DNA of 48,379 bases from assembly GCA_021157965.1 (NCBI GenBank), contig JAGGVO010000039.1, positions 1 through 48,379 on the forward strand. The letters are read 5' to 3'. Positions within the stretch are counted from its first letter, which is position 1; each line of letters starts with the position of its first letter. Both the position numbers and the translations under genes were made by a program. Of this stretch, positions 8,689-17,055 are shown piece by piece. The notes beneath the pieces were generated by a model. That model made no database searches and had not been told where the DNA came from. It saw nothing but the letters and a program-made list of their open reading frames with translations. The DNA comes from Candidatus Neomarinimicrobiota bacterium. GTDB lineage: Bacteria > Fidelibacterota > Fidelibacteria > Fidelibacterales > Fidelibacteraceae.

Positions 8689-8937
8689 TTAAAAATCATC
8701 CCCCATCAGGATTTTCAATCGAGCCAGGACTTCATCTTTCACCGTTTCAGGGAGTTCATCAGCAATCAATCCGTAATGTTCATTGATTTGAAAACGGACT
8801 CCGGCATAGAGATTATTTCCTGTCCCGGCGATATAGGACCAGCGCCTGCCGAAAATCTCACAAACCGCGAGGGAGATGCCATAGGTTTCATGTATCTCCC
8901 GGCATATTTCATTCAGTTTTTTTTCAGATATAGACAT
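8689..8937 (-). CDS. Small protein overlapping the 3' end of hydG
   Basis: I do not recognise this 82-residue protein. It starts MSISEKKLNEICREIHE and looks like a compact alpha/beta protein with a central strand region (RRWSYIAGTGNNLYAGVRF) and a C-terminal helix; no signal peptide, membrane helix or cysteine pair is visible. The ATG at 8937 lies 14 bases inside the end of hydG (stop 8924-8926) and has GGAG just upstream, so its translation is probably coupled to hydG. Longer versions starting further inside hydG are possible but less likely. The overlap suggests a role linked to hydrogenase maturation or its operon (inference only). Confidence 0.65.
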   Translation of the reverse strand: MSISEKKLNEICREIHETYGISLAVCEIFGRRWSYIAGTGNNLYAGVRFQINEHYGLIADELPETVKDEVLARLKILMGDDF

Positions 8938-10444
8938 CCCGTTCTCCGGCCGAGATACGCTTGTAATAGTTTTCAAAATTCTCCAGGAGTTTTCCCTGTT
9001 TGAAAAAAGGAATTGTCCGGATTTCCGTCATCTCTTTTTCCAGGAGTTTTTCACCGACGGCTTTTGTTTCCGGTGATGCGTAATCTTCAAGATATTCTTT
9101 AAATGTGAGAACGGCATTCAACTTACAAAATTTCCCTTCGGTACAGCTTTTCAACAGGCCCATAATTTTGTCGCCGGTCCGTCCGCAGCGGTACCCTGCC
9201 GTACAGAAACTGGTTATCATACCCATTTCCGCCAATTCACGGACCACATCATCCAGGCGCCGGGTATCACCAAGCATAAACTGCTGAGCGTTTTTGTCCT
9301 GATCTCCCTTCTGCACATTTTTCAGAATTTTCAGGGCTTCCGTATAGCCGCCGATCCCGATTTTTGTAGAGGCATCGGTTTGGGTGCAACCTACTTTAAT
9401 CACCTCCCGGCGGAGTTCCGCCCGTTCACGGGCCGTGATGATAAGTCCTGTATAGGGGACGGAAAGCCGTAAAATCGTGACCAGTTTTTTGAAGGTGTCA
9501 TCATCCACCTTCCAGGGGGAATGGGTGGTCAGCCATGATCCGCTGGCCGGGGTCATACGGGGGAAACTGATGGTGTGGGGACCGATACCGAACTGTTGTT
9601 CCAGATCCATGGTATGATAAAGGAGTCCCATGACTTCAAAACGCCAGTCGTACAGTCCAAACAGCGCCCCGGCGGCCACATCGTCAATTCCGGAATCCAT
9701 GGCCCTGTGCAGGGCATACAAACGCCAGCGGTAATTTGCCTTTAAACCTTTCGGATGAACCTGTGCATAGGTTTTTTTATGATATGTCTCCTGAAATACC
9801 TGATATGTGCCAATCCCCGCTTCCCATAGTTTTTTCAAATTCCCGATGCTCATGGGGGCGGCATTGACATTCACACGGCGGATTTCACCGTAACCGCTCC
9901 GGGCCGGGACTTTCACTTTATAGATATTTTTAATGGCATCGGCCATATAATCTGCGTCAGACAGGGGATGTTCGCCAAACACAACAATCATCCGTTTGTG
10001 TCCCTCAGAAACCACAGCCCGTGTTTCATCCCGGACCTCATCCATGTTCAGAATACGGCGCTTTTCCCGGGTATTATCCGTCCTGAAACCGCAATACACA
10101 CAACTGTTCACACACAAATTGCTGCAGTAAAGAGGGGCAAAAAAGACAATCCGGTTATCATAAACCTTCCGCTTAACTTCCAGTCCGGTGGCATACATCT
10201 CTTCCAACAAACCGGGATCTTTTACATGAATGAGCGCTGCCGTTTCTTCGGGCTCCAGACGTTCAACAGCCAGTGATTTCTGCAGGATTTCCCGGATTTT
10301 TGCCGGATCAGGATTACTACCCTCTTCCAGCTTTTTCAGAATTTTCCCTTCGTCAATGAAATCTTTCCCATTGATCAGGTATTTGTCAATTTCTTCCTGT
10401 CTGATAACCTGATCCATCCAGGCAGCAGTAGATTGTACGGCCAT
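8924..10444 (-). CDS. hydG: [FeFe]-hydrogenase maturase HydG, radical SAM tyrosine lyase, with a variant C-terminal cluster motif
   Basis: HydG cleaves tyrosine by radical SAM chemistry to give the CO and cyanide ligands of the hydrogenase H-cluster. The 506-residue protein has the radical SAM triad CVNSCVYC (Cys111, Cys115, Cys118) and the HydG-type C-terminal region with GRTGD and KLNAVLTFKEYLEDY. Known HydG proteins carry CX2CX22C for an auxiliary iron-sulfur cluster. Here the first and third cysteines keep their exact spacing (Cys414 and Cys440), but the middle position is Gly417; a cysteine lies three residues later (Cys420). The ATG at 10444 has AGGAG five bases upstream and follows the TM1266-type gene by eight bases. 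HydE, HydF and a hydrogenase are not in this window. A HydG-like paralogue with another role cannot be excluded. Confidence 0.88.
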   Translation of the reverse strand: MAVQSTAAWMDQVIRQEEIDKYLINGKDFIDEGKILKKLEEGSNPDPAKIREILQKSLAVERLEPEETAALIHVKDPGLLEEMYATGLEVKRKVYDNRIVFFAPLYCSNLCVNSCVYCGFRTDNTREKRRILNMDEVRDETRAVVSEGHKRMIVVFGEHPLSDADYMADAIKNIYKVKVPARSGYGEIRRVNVNAAPMSIGNLKKLWEAGIGTYQVFQETYHKKTYAQVHPKGLKANYRWRLYALHRAMDSGIDDVAAGALFGLYDWRFEVMGLLYHTMDLEQQFGIGPHTISFPRMTPASGSWLTTHSPWKVDDDTFKKLVTILRLSVPYTGLIITARERAELRREVIKVGCTQTDASTKIGIGGYTEALKILKNVQKGDQDKNAQQFMLGDTRRLDDVVRELAEMGMITSFCTAGYRCGRTGDKIMGLLKSCTEGKFCKLNAVLTFKEYLEDYASPETKAVGEKLLEKEMTEIRTIPFFKQGKLLENFENYYKRISAGERDVYI

Positions 10445-10452
10445 ATCAACTC

Positions 10453-10707
10453 CTATAATTTTAAAGTGGATACTTTAACATTGATGGATTCCAACTGTCC
10501 CAAACGCCCGGACAAGGCACCAACCTCATCGCCTGTCATCTTTAAAATCAGAAAAATAATGGCGGCGTTTTCGTTTTCAATAGGATATCCTACCCGGAGA
10601 AGGATGGCATCGGCAAAATCATGCAATAATTCACCAACCTTCCGGTATACCCTGTCCCTGTCATAAACCGTGATACTTAATGTGTGGTATCGCTGTTGTG
10701 TATCCAT
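10453..10707 (-). CDS. TM1266-type iron-only hydrogenase system putative regulator
   Basis: The 84-residue protein (MDTQQRYHTLSITVYDRD to VKVSTLKL) matches the small ACT-like family named after Thermotoga TM1266, which sits beside hydrogenase maturation genes. Visible family traits are the N-terminal strand, the helix with LLHDFADAILLRVGYP, and the strand ENENAAIIFLILKMT. Members resemble the nickel-responsive C-terminal domain of NikR and are thought to regulate, though the mechanism is unproven. I place the start at ATG 10707 with GGGAG upstream; an extension to 10818 is open but adds an unlike segment. It lies eight bases before hydG, supporting a shared function. Confidence 0.8.
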   Translation of the reverse strand: MDTQQRYHTLSITVYDRDRVYRKVGELLHDFADAILLRVGYPIENENAAIIFLILKMTGDEVGALSGRLGQLESINVKVSTLKL

Positions 10708-10872
10708 TTGCGGCTCCCGTCGTTTGTCCATCAGAAGACGAGATACCGCACCCTGCAGCACGACAGTCCCGATCCCCTGACGGCAGATGAACTCCCCCAT
10801 CTCAGGATGGCGGTTCAATATAAATAAAGACTCAGATAAAAGTCAACAGAATATCGTGAAATTTTTCTTTAT

Positions 10873-13800
10873 TTAATCTGTGTCCTCTTTCCTGCACAGA
10901 TAGGCAAATTCACAATGGGTACATGCTTTGGAAAAACGGTCCCGGGTTGTGTGTGGAAATGTCCCGCTTTTTAAATGTTCAACAGCCTCTTTAAACCAGC
11001 CGGTGATTTTTTCAGTCCATTCGTCGGTTTCGATATTGAGGGGATTTGAAGCCGGAACGAATAATCCCTTTTTTCCCGTATCCCCGATTTCTTTGGACAT
11101 GTTGTATGCCTGATGGTTTTTGGGGATACTCTCGTAGACAAAAACAGTCCGGTATCCGGGAAATGCTTCTTTCACTTTCAGATAATAGACCAGCGGTTGA
11201 ATATTGAAACCGGCGGTAACATTATTTACCGAATAGGATGAACCGGTTTTATAATCTGAGATCAGGATTTGCTTTTTTTTATGATCCACAAAGACTTTAT
11301 CAATCTTCCCTTTGAGTTCCAATTCTGCAAATTCCTTATGTTTCAAAAGAGGCCAGCACATACCATCAGATTTGGATTTTTCATCATCAAATTTTTGTTC
11401 AAAAAAGCTGTCAAGATCATCAAAAGCACGGAGAATTTCCAGATTCTTCCGGACAAGATCGGCCATTTTTCCTTTCGGGGGATTTTCATCAAGACCCCGA
11501 ATCAGAAAGCGAAAGCGTTGTTTGGCCCAGATATCCGTTTCCGTGTTATGATCCCGCTTTTTCAGTTCCTCATTCACCACCTGTTTCATGAGAGAGAGGG
11601 CTTTTGGTTCCGGGAGTGTAAATCCCCCTTCCTCACCGAAACGATGGAGGATAGCGTGAACAAATCCGCCCACTTCCATATTTTCCTTCCCCTGTTTATC
11701 GGCATCGGTTTGCCGGAGTTTGAGGATTGCACTGAACCAGTACCGCATGGGACACACAATTAAATGTTCCACCTGAGTGGCCGATGTCCTGTAGGGTAAA
11801 TCAACCGGCCTTGCCAATCCGTGATAGGGTCCCGGCAATGCGTTCGAAGCCTTATCCGGGGAAGTTTGCCTTTTCATCCATTCATTATGTCGACGGATGG
11901 CAGGCAGTTCCGGAGAGGGGTGAATCACGGCTGAGAAAAAATTGCGGTAAAATGAGCGCCGGCCGGGATACACACTGATATCTGCCGGAGGCGGAACCTG
12001 TTCAAAGGCTTCCAGCAGTGCGGAAGGTTCCGTTGTCGCACTGTTGGATAGTGTTTTCGAAGCCAGAAAGCGGACCTGTTTCAGTCGACACCAATGACTG
12101 AGCATGCGCCTGTTCAGATACCAGGGATTGTAAGGTGCTTCACTGAAAAAGGGATTGCGAAGCATCCGAACCGGAAAATCGGTCTGATTCAATCCCAACA
12201 ACCACAGACAATCAGGTTCCAGATTCATGGTATCCAAAAAACCGGTGACGGGAATACCCTGTGTCCAATCCCTTCGGGGGATTTCCTCACGGTTGATCCA
12301 TTCCCTGAGGAGTATCAGTCCCTCCTGTTTCATCTCCCTATCATCCACACCCACCAACTGCAGCGATGGAATGGTTTTTCGGATCAGGCGGGCCAATGTA
12401 TCCCTGACCTTTTGATTAAAAACCCCTTCCCGGCCGGAAGATGCATTGCCCGGTATCTCATCCAACGTATGTTTCAGGTAATCGAGACAGCGGGAGATAC
12501 TCTTCAAAGATGCCATATCCTCCAGGAGGCGATTCACATACCGGTCATAGATTCCACGGAAAAACTCATGCCTTTGATTCCCCTTTCTCTCCAGAAACAG
12601 TTTGATGGCATCCGGTGATTCCAGGGCATTCTGCCGGAGATACACATCCAGATCGTAGAGGTATGGGGGAGCCTGGACTATCGGATCCAGAAGGACACCG
12701 GCGATTATAATCCACTCTGCCTGGTGGATATTCTCCATCAGTGTCATCAGATTCAGGAAGAAGTTCCCCAAAGGTGTTTGTTTCAGGGGTATCCGTGTGG
12801 AAAAGGAGACGGGAATGCCATATTCACCGGCAATCCGCCGAATCAGGGGTTCATATTCGGACGGATTGGAAACAGCAATGTGGCAGGATTGAAGATTGAC
12901 AGGTTCACGGGCGACGATTTCCCGGAAAACCAACCGGACTTCATCTTCTGACCGGTTACACACCACAACTTTATGACCCCTGCCATCGAGTTCACCCAGC
13001 TTTTTCCATGCATGGATATCGGGGATATCCCGGGAACCGGGCATTCTGAACCGGCGGGCATCCCGGGCAATCGTTTCCATCAGACTATGACGTAAAGGGG
13101 ATGGCTGATACCATCCTGTAAGGTAAACATCCATTCCTTTGAAAGGATGCTTCTCTTTTAAATAATTCAGAATATCTCCGTCCGTTGTCAAATCTCGTTC
13201 ACGGATTGCCTGAAAAGCCGATTGAATCAGGGATTCGCTTACCGCATCCCCTGTCAGTCCGTAAAGTTCCGCCTGACTCAGGGCTTCTGACAGTTTCCGG
13301 GCAGTACCGGGCATTGGGGATATTTCCTGCTGTTCTTTCAGGATATGACGGCATAGAAGCATCCTCACACCCGGATCAAGTCCTTTACCGGGGACATTCC
13401 GAACGCGCTGTAGATCCTGCCAGGAAAGAATACGGATTTCAGGTGAAGCCTTTTTCCGCCAGACAAGATTTTTCCGGATTTCTTCCGCCTCTGTCTTAGT
13501 TGAACACAGGACCAGCGTGGGGTGTCCATCCAGGAATTCCACCAAATCATCCATGATGGCTGCATCGGCTTTCCCCTTTTCGGGTGCCGGAACGACGGGA
13601 CTTCCATCAGGTGAGAGACGATTTAATACACCGGGATCCCGCCTGACAGTTTCCACATGGTTTTGTGACACAAACCATATCAAGCCTTTTGGGGTGATGC
13701 CAAATGCCTGAAACAGCATCTCCTGATAAAGATTCATTTGTACTCTGTATTGTGAAAGTCCATTCAGATCACGGTCTGTTTTGTAATCCAAAATTGTCCA

Positions 13801-16800
13801 GGACTCTCCGGTCCGGTAGAGCAGATCCACCACACCCCGGAGGAGAAACCGTTCTTTTTCCGTTTCATAAACAGCAGAAACGGGCAATTCAAAAAAAGCA
13901 TCTCCTGGCTGAAGCCGGTTGATTTCCTGAAAGAGGGGATTGGATATCAGCCTGGACAAATCTTTATTCAGCCGCTGTAAAGCCTCCGGGGAGGAGAGTG
14001 AAGAAAAATCGGTAATATTGTCTTTCAGCCATTTTTCAGCCGAATCGGGAGCATTCCACCACTGTTCTTCCATGACTTTGTGGAAAAATACTCCGTACTG
14101 ACGATTCATCTCCGAATCTCCCCTTTGTCCTTCCCTCCTGTTATCGCCAACAGTCATCTGTTCCATGATATCATGAGGAGTTACTATGCAGAGGGGTTTC
14201 CAGCGCCTTTTGACAGCCGGAGGTAAAACCCAGGCTTTTTCGACGGTTTTTGCAGCAGGAAGACATGTCAGGGCATCATCCCAGGTGCGATTCAAGAGAC
14301 TCATGCCACTTATAGGATCATCCGTATTTCTCCAGTCCGGACCGGCAGGATTTGAGGGATTATCCACCAGCAAACCCCGGGCGATATAGCGTTGCCAGGG
14401 TGTATTTTGAGACGGTTTACGGTTTGAGTCGGTAAATTCGGCCAGAAAGGCCACATGGAACATAGCCCGGGTGACCGCCACATAAAAAACACGGAGTTCT
14501 TCTGCTTCTTCCCGGGCTTTTTGTCCGTTGTGGATAGAACGAAAAACCCCGGAACGGAGATTTTCATCACCCTCGTCTAAAATATTAATGGCAACATCCG
14601 TATCATCTTGCCTGGCAGCATGTGTAACATGAATTTTATCGCTTTTCTCTTTCCGATTCATATCCCCAAGAATAACCATGGGGAATTCCAGTCCCTTTGC
14701 CTTGTGAATGGTCATAAGGCAAACACGGGCTTCTCCTTCAGGACCTGCCTCCTCCCGACTGCTTTTACGGTCTCTCTGGGATATAAACCAGGCCAGGGAT
14801 TCCCGCAGAGACATCCCGTTGAGCATCATGCCCCGCAAAAGATGGATGGTCAAATCCAGATTGGCCAGGTAACGTTCTCCTTCCTCATCGCTAAGACAGG
14901 CCAGTTCCCGTTCCTGTTCCGCCAGGATATCCTCCATCAAATCCGGCAGAAAAAGGGTTCTGCTGCGATTCAGCCAGTCCTGCAAAACATCTTTTATAGT
15001 TTGAAGAGATGCATTTCGCTGAATAAAAGACCAGATTGATTCGTGCTCATTCCTGTCCCGGAAAGCATCCACCTGTTCATCGGTGAGCATAAGCCAGGGA
15101 CTCCGTCCGAGGGCTGTTAAAGCCAAATCATCATGGGGATTGGCGAAAAAAGCCAGAAGATAGCAAAAATCAAAGATTTCCTGACGTTGAAAAAAACCGT
15201 TTCCGGCCACAATTTCCAGGGGGATATTGAAACGTTTAAAAATGGCCGCAAAAGCTCCAACGCGGGTAAAGGAGCGGAGAAGGATACCAAGCACCGGACC
15301 CTTCGTGTGGATATTTGTCTCCTTAAGCTTCTCTTCCATTTTTTCATCATCCCACCATGTCAGCATCTCCCGGGCTGTGAGGGCTGCATTAACGGCACAG
15401 GCCCTTTCCATATCATTTGACGGAACCTGTGTAATCGTGCGGACCAATACGGGAAATTTGGGGACCTGATCCACTTCAGGAGGAAAGATACCGGCAGGCC
15501 GGGTAGGTGTAAACACCGCCTGCCATGGGGATTCTTCATCAGGAAAAAGCTTTGGGAAAAGAGTATTCACCACTTTATCAATAAAACGCCCTGTGGACCG
15601 GTAATTGTTACTGAGTATAATTTCGGCCGGTTCTACAGAGGCTTTTGCCAGGTCATCCTTCGCTTGTTTCATCACGGTAACATCGGCCTGCTGGAAACCA
15701 TAAATGGACTGTTTTTTATCCCCCACAATAAAGAGTCCGGAAGGACGCAGGGTTCCCTCTTCATCGGAGGCAATCATCCGGATAATATCCCAGCGGGGAT
15801 CGTTGGTATCCTGGAACTCATCCACCATAATATGAACATACCGGCCGGACAGACTTTTCCGGATGCTTTCGTGTTTTTTAAGGAGGGCTTGTGTTTTGAG
15901 AATTACATCATCAAAGGTCAGATAACCCATGCGGGCCTGAAATCCATCCATGTGTTTCTGAAAGTCAACAAAGAGCTTGTACATGGCAATGAGAACCTGA
16001 AGACCCATCCGGTCCAGATTGTTCGGTGCTTCACACACCTGCGCCGCTTCCAACCTCAGGGAGACCGTTATTTCTTTCAGGCTGTTTTTAACATCATCGA
16101 GAACCTTCGGGCATTTCCAGTTCACTTTGTTGCCGTGATACCGGGACAAGAATTTGTCCTTTTTCTTCGTCATAAGCAGAGGCAACACAGATACACACAG
16201 TATTCTCCGGAGTTCGGTGTCGGATATACCGGATGGAATGGCATCGAGAGCACTTTGAAGATTACGTAGCAACCGGCGAGCCGCATCCGATTCATCATAG
16301 ACAGGACTATCCAATGCTTTAATCACCTGATGGAGTTCACGGAGGATATATTCTTCGTCAAAATCGGGAGTATAGGCCTGAACCCAGTCATGCCACATCT
16401 CTTCTTTCAGCTGTTCTGTCGGTTTGCTGCCCATCTTTTGCAGCCAATCCTGAAGGAAAAGGCGGTGGTTATAAAGATACTCCATAACCTGTTTCACCTG
16501 ATCCACTGTTATCACATCGAAGACAATCGAGAGATCGGAATCGGATTGGGAGGCTTTTTTTCGCAGGAAACGGTCCAGTTCCTTTTCAAAGAAAAGAGTA
16601 CTCAGAACCTCCTCTTCCACCTTAAAATCAGGATCCAGACCGGCGGTGAATGCGTAATCTTTCAGGACCTGCATACAAAAGCTGTCAATGGTGGAAATTG
16701 CGTGCCGGGAGAAGGCGCCTTCCAGCCAAAGTCTATACTCCGGGGTAGTCCGGCGCAAGTATTGACCCAGTTCGGGAAGGTTAGCATCTATGGACCTGCC

Positions 16801-17055
16801 TGCCAGGAGCATCTTCAGGTCCCTGAAGATTTTCACCGTCATTTCATTGGCTGCTTTCCGGGTAAAGGTGATGACCAGGATATTGGACGGATCGTAACGG
16901 GGCGCCCCGGGATTTTCGAGGACCTGGCGTGCAAAATCATCCAAAATGGCACAATAGCGCTTTGTGAGGGTATAAGTTTTACCTGTCCCTGCACTGGCCT
17001 CAATGAATAAATTCCTGTCCATAAACATTGCTTTTTGCAATTCACTTTGAATCAT
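10873..17055 (-). CDS. Single-chain AddA-AddB fusion: UvrD-type helicase with two PD-(D/E)XK nuclease domains
   Basis: The 2060-residue protein appears to join both subunits of the AddAB double-strand-break resection enzyme. Residues 1 to about 1150 look like AddA: Walker A EASAGTGKT (19-27), VITFTRKAANEM, VDEFQDT (near 410), GDKKQSIYGFQQ, NNYRST, TIHKAKGLEFP (near 780), FYVAVTRA, then a RecB-type nuclease with GVVDLLY and DYKTDRD (near 1088). From about residue 1167 (MDDLVEFLDGHPTLVLC) the rest looks like AddB: an inactive helicase-like region without Walker A, a second nuclease with KGKIDKV and DYKTG (near 1932), and four cysteines (near 1766, then CTHCEFAYLC at 2044-2053) placed as in the AddB iron-sulfur cluster. 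The ATG at 17055 lies 15 bases after the response regulator stop. Partner genes are normally separate. Confidence 0.88.
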   Translation of the reverse strand: MIQSELQKAMFMDRNLFIEASAGTGKTYTLTKRYCAILDDFARQVLENPGAPRYDPSNILVITFTRKAANEMTVKIFRDLKMLLAGRSIDANLPELGQYLRRTTPEYRLWLEGAFSRHAISTIDSFCMQVLKDYAFTAGLDPDFKVEEEVLSTLFFEKELDRFLRKKASQSDSDLSIVFDVITVDQVKQVMEYLYNHRLFLQDWLQKMGSKPTEQLKEEMWHDWVQAYTPDFDEEYILRELHQVIKALDSPVYDESDAARRLLRNLQSALDAIPSGISDTELRRILCVSVLPLLMTKKKDKFLSRYHGNKVNWKCPKVLDDVKNSLKEITVSLRLEAAQVCEAPNNLDRMGLQVLIAMYKLFVDFQKHMDGFQARMGYLTFDDVILKTQALLKKHESIRKSLSGRYVHIMVDEFQDTNDPRWDIIRMIASDEEGTLRPSGLFIVGDKKQSIYGFQQADVTVMKQAKDDLAKASVEPAEIILSNNYRSTGRFIDKVVNTLFPKLFPDEESPWQAVFTPTRPAGIFPPEVDQVPKFPVLVRTITQVPSNDMERACAVNAALTAREMLTWWDDEKMEEKLKETNIHTKGPVLGILLRSFTRVGAFAAIFKRFNIPLEIVAGNGFFQRQEIFDFCYLLAFFANPHDDLALTALGRSPWLMLTDEQVDAFRDRNEHESIWSFIQRNASLQTIKDVLQDWLNRSRTLFLPDLMEDILAEQERELACLSDEEGERYLANLDLTIHLLRGMMLNGMSLRESLAWFISQRDRKSSREEAGPEGEARVCLMTIHKAKGLEFPMVILGDMNRKEKSDKIHVTHAARQDDTDVAINILDEGDENLRSGVFRSIHNGQKAREEAEELRVFYVAVTRAMFHVAFLAEFTDSNRKPSQNTPWQRYIARGLLVDNPSNPAGPDWRNTDDPISGMSLLNRTWDDALTCLPAAKTVEKAWVLPPAVKRRWKPLCIVTPHDIMEQMTVGDNRREGQRGDSEMNRQYGVFFHKVMEEQWWNAPDSAEKWLKDNITDFSSLSSPEALQRLNKDLSRLISNPLFQEINRLQPGDAFFELPVSAVYETEKERFLLRGVVDLLYRTGESWTILDYKTDRDLNGLSQYRVQMNLYQEMLFQAFGITPKGLIWFVSQNHVETVRRDPGVLNRLSPDGSPVVPAPEKGKADAAIMDDLVEFLDGHPTLVLCSTKTEAEEIRKNLVWRKKASPEIRILSWQDLQRVRNVPGKGLDPGVRMLLCRHILKEQQEISPMPGTARKLSEALSQAELYGLTGDAVSESLIQSAFQAIRERDLTTDGDILNYLKEKHPFKGMDVYLTGWYQPSPLRHSLMETIARDARRFRMPGSRDIPDIHAWKKLGELDGRGHKVVVCNRSEDEVRLVFREIVAREPVNLQSCHIAVSNPSEYEPLIRRIAGEYGIPVSFSTRIPLKQTPLGNFFLNLMTLMENIHQAEWIIIAGVLLDPIVQAPPYLYDLDVYLRQNALESPDAIKLFLERKGNQRHEFFRGIYDRYVNRLLEDMASLKSISRCLDYLKHTLDEIPGNASSGREGVFNQKVRDTLARLIRKTIPSLQLVGVDDREMKQEGLILLREWINREEIPRRDWTQGIPVTGFLDTMNLEPDCLWLLGLNQTDFPVRMLRNPFFSEAPYNPWYLNRRMLSHWCRLKQVRFLASKTLSNSATTEPSALLEAFEQVPPPADISVYPGRRSFYRNFFSAVIHPSPELPAIRRHNEWMKRQTSPDKASNALPGPYHGLARPVDLPYRTSATQVEHLIVCPMRYWFSAILKLRQTDADKQGKENMEVGGFVHAILHRFGEEGGFTLPEPKALSLMKQVVNEELKKRDHNTETDIWAKQRFRFLIRGLDENPPKGKMADLVRKNLEILRAFDDLDSFFEQKFDDEKSKSDGMCWPLLKHKEFAELELKGKIDKVFVDHKKKQILISDYKTGSSYSVNNVTAGFNIQPLVYYLKVKEAFPGYRTVFVYESIPKNHQAYNMSKEIGDTGKKGLFVPASNPLNIETDEWTEKITGWFKEAVEHLKSGTFPHTTRDRFSKACTHCEFAYLCRKEDTD

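Follow-up and report, generated by a model that had tools for sequence, protein, structure and literature searches.

What becomes of the auxiliary cluster of the hydrogenase maturase HydG when the middle cysteine of its binding site is missing? An auxiliary site of the form CX2CX22C often serves to recognise HydG and to frame discussion of its chemistry. On the stretch of Candidatus Neomarinimicrobiota DNA analysed here (contig JAGGVO010000039.1, positions 1 to 48,379; the window), a hydG gene has glycine at the middle position, residue 417, and a cysteine three residues further along. The original prediction left two options, that Cys420 substitutes to give CX5CX19C or that the cluster is altered, and suggested that the change could mark a HydG subclass or a different product. 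We infer with good confidence that Cys420 takes the place of Cys417 as a ligand of the auxiliary cluster, with the product unchanged.

Results

The hydG gene (8924-10444, minus strand, as are all window features given here) encodes a protein of 506 aa that scores 446 bits against the NCBIfam HydG equivalog model TIGR03955, above the cut-off of 312. An identity as ThiH was rejected, with 254.8 bits against TIGR02351 falling under the cut-off of 380. It is the only full HydG in its own genome. The radical-SAM CX3CX2C motif is intact (C111, C115 and C118; 10091-10114, codons checked), and its positions are Cys in every HydG row of our alignment that covers the site. Toward the C-terminus, the translation and a codon check agree with the residues originally described: Cys414 (TGT, 9203-9205) and Cys440 (TGT, 9125-9127) keep their spacing, the usual middle-cysteine position is Gly417 (GGG, 9194-9196), and a cysteine, the candidate replacement ligand, stands at position 420 (TGC, 9185-9187). 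The classical CX2CX22C spacing is absent, and C414, C420 and C440 instead follow the C-x(5)-C-x(19)-C type described in the literature (PMC9431212). Spacing is treated there as variable, and CX2CX22C is not taken here as defining HydG. A degenerate pattern for the motif matches the window once and has no match in 100 shuffles of the window. An extra cysteine, Cys434 (9143-9145), was considered as an alternative cluster ligand and rejected; it is not conserved, being Cys in just 30 of the 130 GYRC sequences, which makes a required role as a ligand unlikely.

The AlphaFold model of the protein (pLDDT 94.6) matches chain A of PDB 4WCX, the HydG of Thermoanaerobacter italicus, with a TM-score of 0.97 (target-normalised) and an rmsd of 1.7 Å. 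In structural alignment the window protein is 44% identical to this HydG and 33% identical to that of Carboxydothermus hydrogenoformans (PDB 4RTB). It shares with both the fold, the radical-SAM site, the dangler histidine and the equivalents of Cys414 and Cys440, but has CX5CX19C where they have CX2CX22C, and Ala and Asp at positions 338 and 357 where they have Thr and Ser. His277 (9614-9616), the predicted ligand of the dangler iron, aligns with the histidine of the LYH motif in 4WCX, and we take it to be equivalent to His265 of T. italicus, the dangler-iron histidine. The aligned histidine is kept in all 138 alignment rows that are without Cys417 (the variants). With ThiH (PDB 7PD1), the tyrosine lyase of thiamine synthesis, the window HydG has the radical-SAM tyrosine-lyase core in common; the structural match is largely confined to that core (TMq 0.66) and leaves out the C-terminal cluster domain. 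Residues 416-419 of the model form one helical turn with Cys420 directly after it, an arrangement in which the ligand could plausibly have shifted by three residues.

The HydG alignment comprises 243 rows, 105 with Cys417 and 138 without, and Cys414 and Cys440 are invariant throughout. Only Cys417 is found in 105 rows, only Cys420 in 134, neither in four, and both in none. Where Cys417 is present, position 420 is filled by 13 residue types; where it is absent, position 420 is Cys in 134 of 138 rows (with Gly417 in 130 and Asp417 in four) and Ala in the remaining four. In an 80% non-redundant set, the corresponding counts for Cys417 only, Cys420 only and neither are 83, 90 and 3 (Fisher p = 2e-47, with rows treated as independent though they are not). 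Because the two cysteines are mutually exclusive, and because position 420 is unconstrained in the presence of Cys417 but nearly always Cys in its absence, substitution by Cys420 is strongly supported.

On a careful tree of 57 rows, built with the motif columns left out, Cys417 changes at least three times on supported branches, and thus the exchange of Cys417 for Cys420 was repeated, or took place once with reversal. Two Cys417 changes were needed on a quick tree made earlier, which included fewer canonical relatives of the variants, and a pair-based independence test on that tree was non-significant, with too few independent pairs. Most variants form one supported clade of the 57-row tree and further variant lineages lie outside it, which supports the proposal that the residue change marks a subclass of HydG.

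The variant is not confined to the window. HydG is present in 33 of the 245 genomes of the window's phylum, and of the 29 with a readable motif, 16 carry CTAGYRCGRTG and 13 carry CT[AG]CYR. A scan of genome contigs for C[TS][AG]GYRCGRTG returned at least 118 loci, and all 118 of the matches listed, from many phyla, sit in HydG-like frames. Among the matches listed are loci from Omnitrophota, Kiritimatiellota, Lentisphaerota, Verrucomicrobiota, Bacteroidota, Spirochaetota, Planctomycetota and others, with Desulfosarcina widdelii, Peptoclostridium litorale and an Archaeoglobaceae archaeon as further carriers. Four other genomes of the window's genus have the identical CTAGYRCGRTG (L017, L018, L021 and L022). 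A sequencing error at the Gly417 site, a possibility raised together with the original prediction, is excluded because the motif recurs in these congeners and in more than 100 other loci. The open frame is full-length, which speaks against a decaying gene as well, and we give error or decay next to no probability. Judged from these sequences, CX5CX19C is a widespread form of HydG, neither an error nor a loss.

Partner genes were surveyed in 30 variant-carrying genomes, many of them incomplete metagenome bins. HydF was found in all 30, HydE in 26 (E <= 1e-50) and a strong HydA in 25 (E <= 1e-60), and 28 have no canonical HydG. Both HydG types occur in P. litorale and in one Bacteroidales bin; in P. 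litorale, the variant HydG (L284) lies apart from the other hyd genes, and the canonical HydG adjoins HydF. At 70 of the 118 listed loci, at least one gene for HydE, HydF, HydA, the TM1266 regulator or the ammonia-lyase is present in the same stretch, many stretches being short. In the window, the gene just upstream of hydG (10453-10716) encodes a TM1266-family putative regulator of the iron-only hydrogenase system (TIGR03959, 76 bits; cut-off 60.8). The window's genome encodes HydE, HydF and [FeFe]-hydrogenase alongside its single HydG: one HydE on contig 27, one HydF on contig 44, where its gene follows a putative aspartate ammonia-lyase gene, and, on contigs 19 and 36, two HydA proteins with H-cluster motifs. 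Two further HydA-like proteins, of 484 and 590 aa, are encoded close together on contig C41 of this genome (L275:3121-7769, minus strand); partial or no H-cluster motifs were found in them, and they are perhaps sensory-type relatives.

A comparison of related genera points to exchange of HydG types. Between the window's genus (g1, with the variant) and another genus of the same family (g2, with canonical HydG), HydF is 59-62% identical, against 42-52% for other families, and HydA is 73% identical, but HydG is only 41-44% identical. The window HydG instead shares 70-71% identity with the variant HydG of a different family, f29; between f29 and the window's genome, HydF identity is only 47-49%. 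Since g1 and g2 share HydF and HydA but not HydG, and the window HydG is closer to that of f29, HydG was probably swapped between types as a unit while HydF and HydA were inherited, a reading based on identities and not on a formal reconciliation. This apparent exchange, resting on the same identities, would be the strongest sign in our data that the product of the two types is equivalent.

The tyrosine pocket also differs from that of the solved HydGs. ThiH residues T299, S318, S321 and R306 are stated to be strictly conserved in HydG (PMC9046217). By pairwise alignment, T299 and S318 correspond to window positions 338 and 357, where all variants have Ala, Asn, Cys or Val at 338 and D357. Twenty-five CX2C HydGs are likewise without the Thr and Ser, all 25 having Ala338 together with D357; both Thr and Ser are found in 80 canonical sequences, the two solved HydGs included. 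The tree shows a single change here, which preceded the cysteine exchange, and the aligned sequences identify it as a deep split of the HydG family. The changed pocket residues count against the reading favoured below, although they arose before the cysteines were exchanged.

The end of hydG overlaps orf81 (8689-8934), which encodes an undescribed protein of 81 aa. Members of the orf81 family, with the motif G[RK]RWS[YF][IV]AG, directly follow hydG at 47 of 132 testable variant loci and at none of 64 canonical loci (Fisher p = 4e-10, uncorrected for phylogeny). In one instance a member of the family is fused to the N-terminus of HydE (L062:640-2013, plus strand); an apparent fusion with HydF in L026 was rejected, its frame passing through an N-run. 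No Pfam or NCBIfam family was found for orf81, and a profile search against PDB sequences gave nothing convincing. Its model (pLDDT 87) consists of a helix, four strands and a helix, and a fold search returned no significant match (best E 0.055).

Discussion

In the explanation we favour, the gene encodes the H-cluster maturase HydG, and Cys414, Cys420 and Cys440 would hold the C-terminal auxiliary [4Fe-4S] cluster that bears the dangler iron. Relative to the usual set of Cys414, Cys417 and Cys440, the middle ligand would have shifted three residues along. Tyrosine would still be cleaved at the radical-SAM site, and an Fe(CO)2CN-type synthon would be built at His277 and the auxiliary cluster. 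The variant very probably does the same job as the usual HydG.

The chief argument against Cys420 being strictly required comes from four HydGs with CTAGYRAGRTG, which have neither Cys417 nor Cys420 and fall into two lineages on the tree (L196, L219, L223 and L229; wider stretches of these loci are L277-L280). In three of the four genomes this is the sole HydG found, with HydE, HydF and HydA present, and two of these genes sit in a hydA-TM1266-hydG-hydE cluster. No conserved cysteine that could replace C420 is shared by both lineages. Either two cysteines suffice in these proteins or another ligand serves, and the third cysteine may not be indispensable. Such natural Gly417/Ala420 proteins with full partner sets, along with the Asp417 of some variants, favour a model in which the cluster sits on Cys414, Cys440 and a non-cysteine ligand or free cysteine, while Cys420 contributes, for example, to stability or cluster loading. 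This model is difficult to reconcile with the retention of Cys420 in nearly all rows that are without Cys417, and its absence from every row that has it. The C-terminal cluster of HydG is also required for maturation (King et al., 2006, as cited in PMC9431212), and we regard a non-ligand role for Cys420 as improbable.

Less probable again, and in our view very unlikely, is that the variant is functionally different, its altered site making another product, such as free cyanide or a different iron complex, or taking another substrate. A338 and D357 do differ at two tyrosine phenolate contacts defined in ThiH, and an extra small protein is encoded beside many variants. However, the pocket change is common to the 25 CX2C HydGs, and the variant is usually the sole HydG beside HydE, HydF and HydA. 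The different product envisaged in the original prediction thus finds no support, given that the dangler histidine, the radical-SAM site, the fold and the partner genes are all kept, and it is further opposed by the exchange of HydG types beside the same HydF and HydA lineages.

The subclass part of that prediction stands, with a spacing that had already been published. The CX5CX19C motif itself is not new: CLAU_RS03260, proposed as the HydG of Clostridium autoethanogenum, has C-x(5)-C-x(19)-C (Di Leonardo et al., 2022; PMC9431212) and, as known from the published motif, shares with the window HydG both this C-terminal spacing and the radical-SAM motif. The same study describes five acetogens in which HydG could not be called by motif, cites Duffus et al. 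(2012) for variability of the C-terminal motif, and contains no analysis of the distribution or evolution of C-x(5)-C-x(19)-C. In the literature searched, with Duffus et al. (2012) lying outside it, we found no account of how broadly the type is distributed, of the strict mutual exclusion of Cys417 and Cys420, of repeated exchange, of two-cysteine forms or of the companion protein. The window HydG appears to be a functional member of a known but little-studied type.

Searches that rely on the motif can overlook the many natural HydGs that are without CX2CX22C. In the cluster that builds the synthon, the second ligand position appears to be movable, and the natural two-cysteine HydGs offer a direct route to asking how many protein ligands the cluster needs. 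As a tentative and rather doubtful extension, this branch might tolerate a plastic auxiliary site (CX2C, CX5C, Asp with CX5C, or two cysteines), with many HydGs working alongside a dedicated orf81 partner that assists in loading, holding or transferring the cluster or synthon. The small protein gives a specific candidate for a maturation factor that has so far gone unrecognised.

Elsewhere in the window, Pfam places UvrD helicase domains and a PD-(D/E)XK nuclease domain at opposite ends of a frame of 2060 aa (10873-17055), and the Cas4 model gives a second, weak nuclease-like region near residue 1100. The frame resembles a fusion of AddA and AddB into a single gene.
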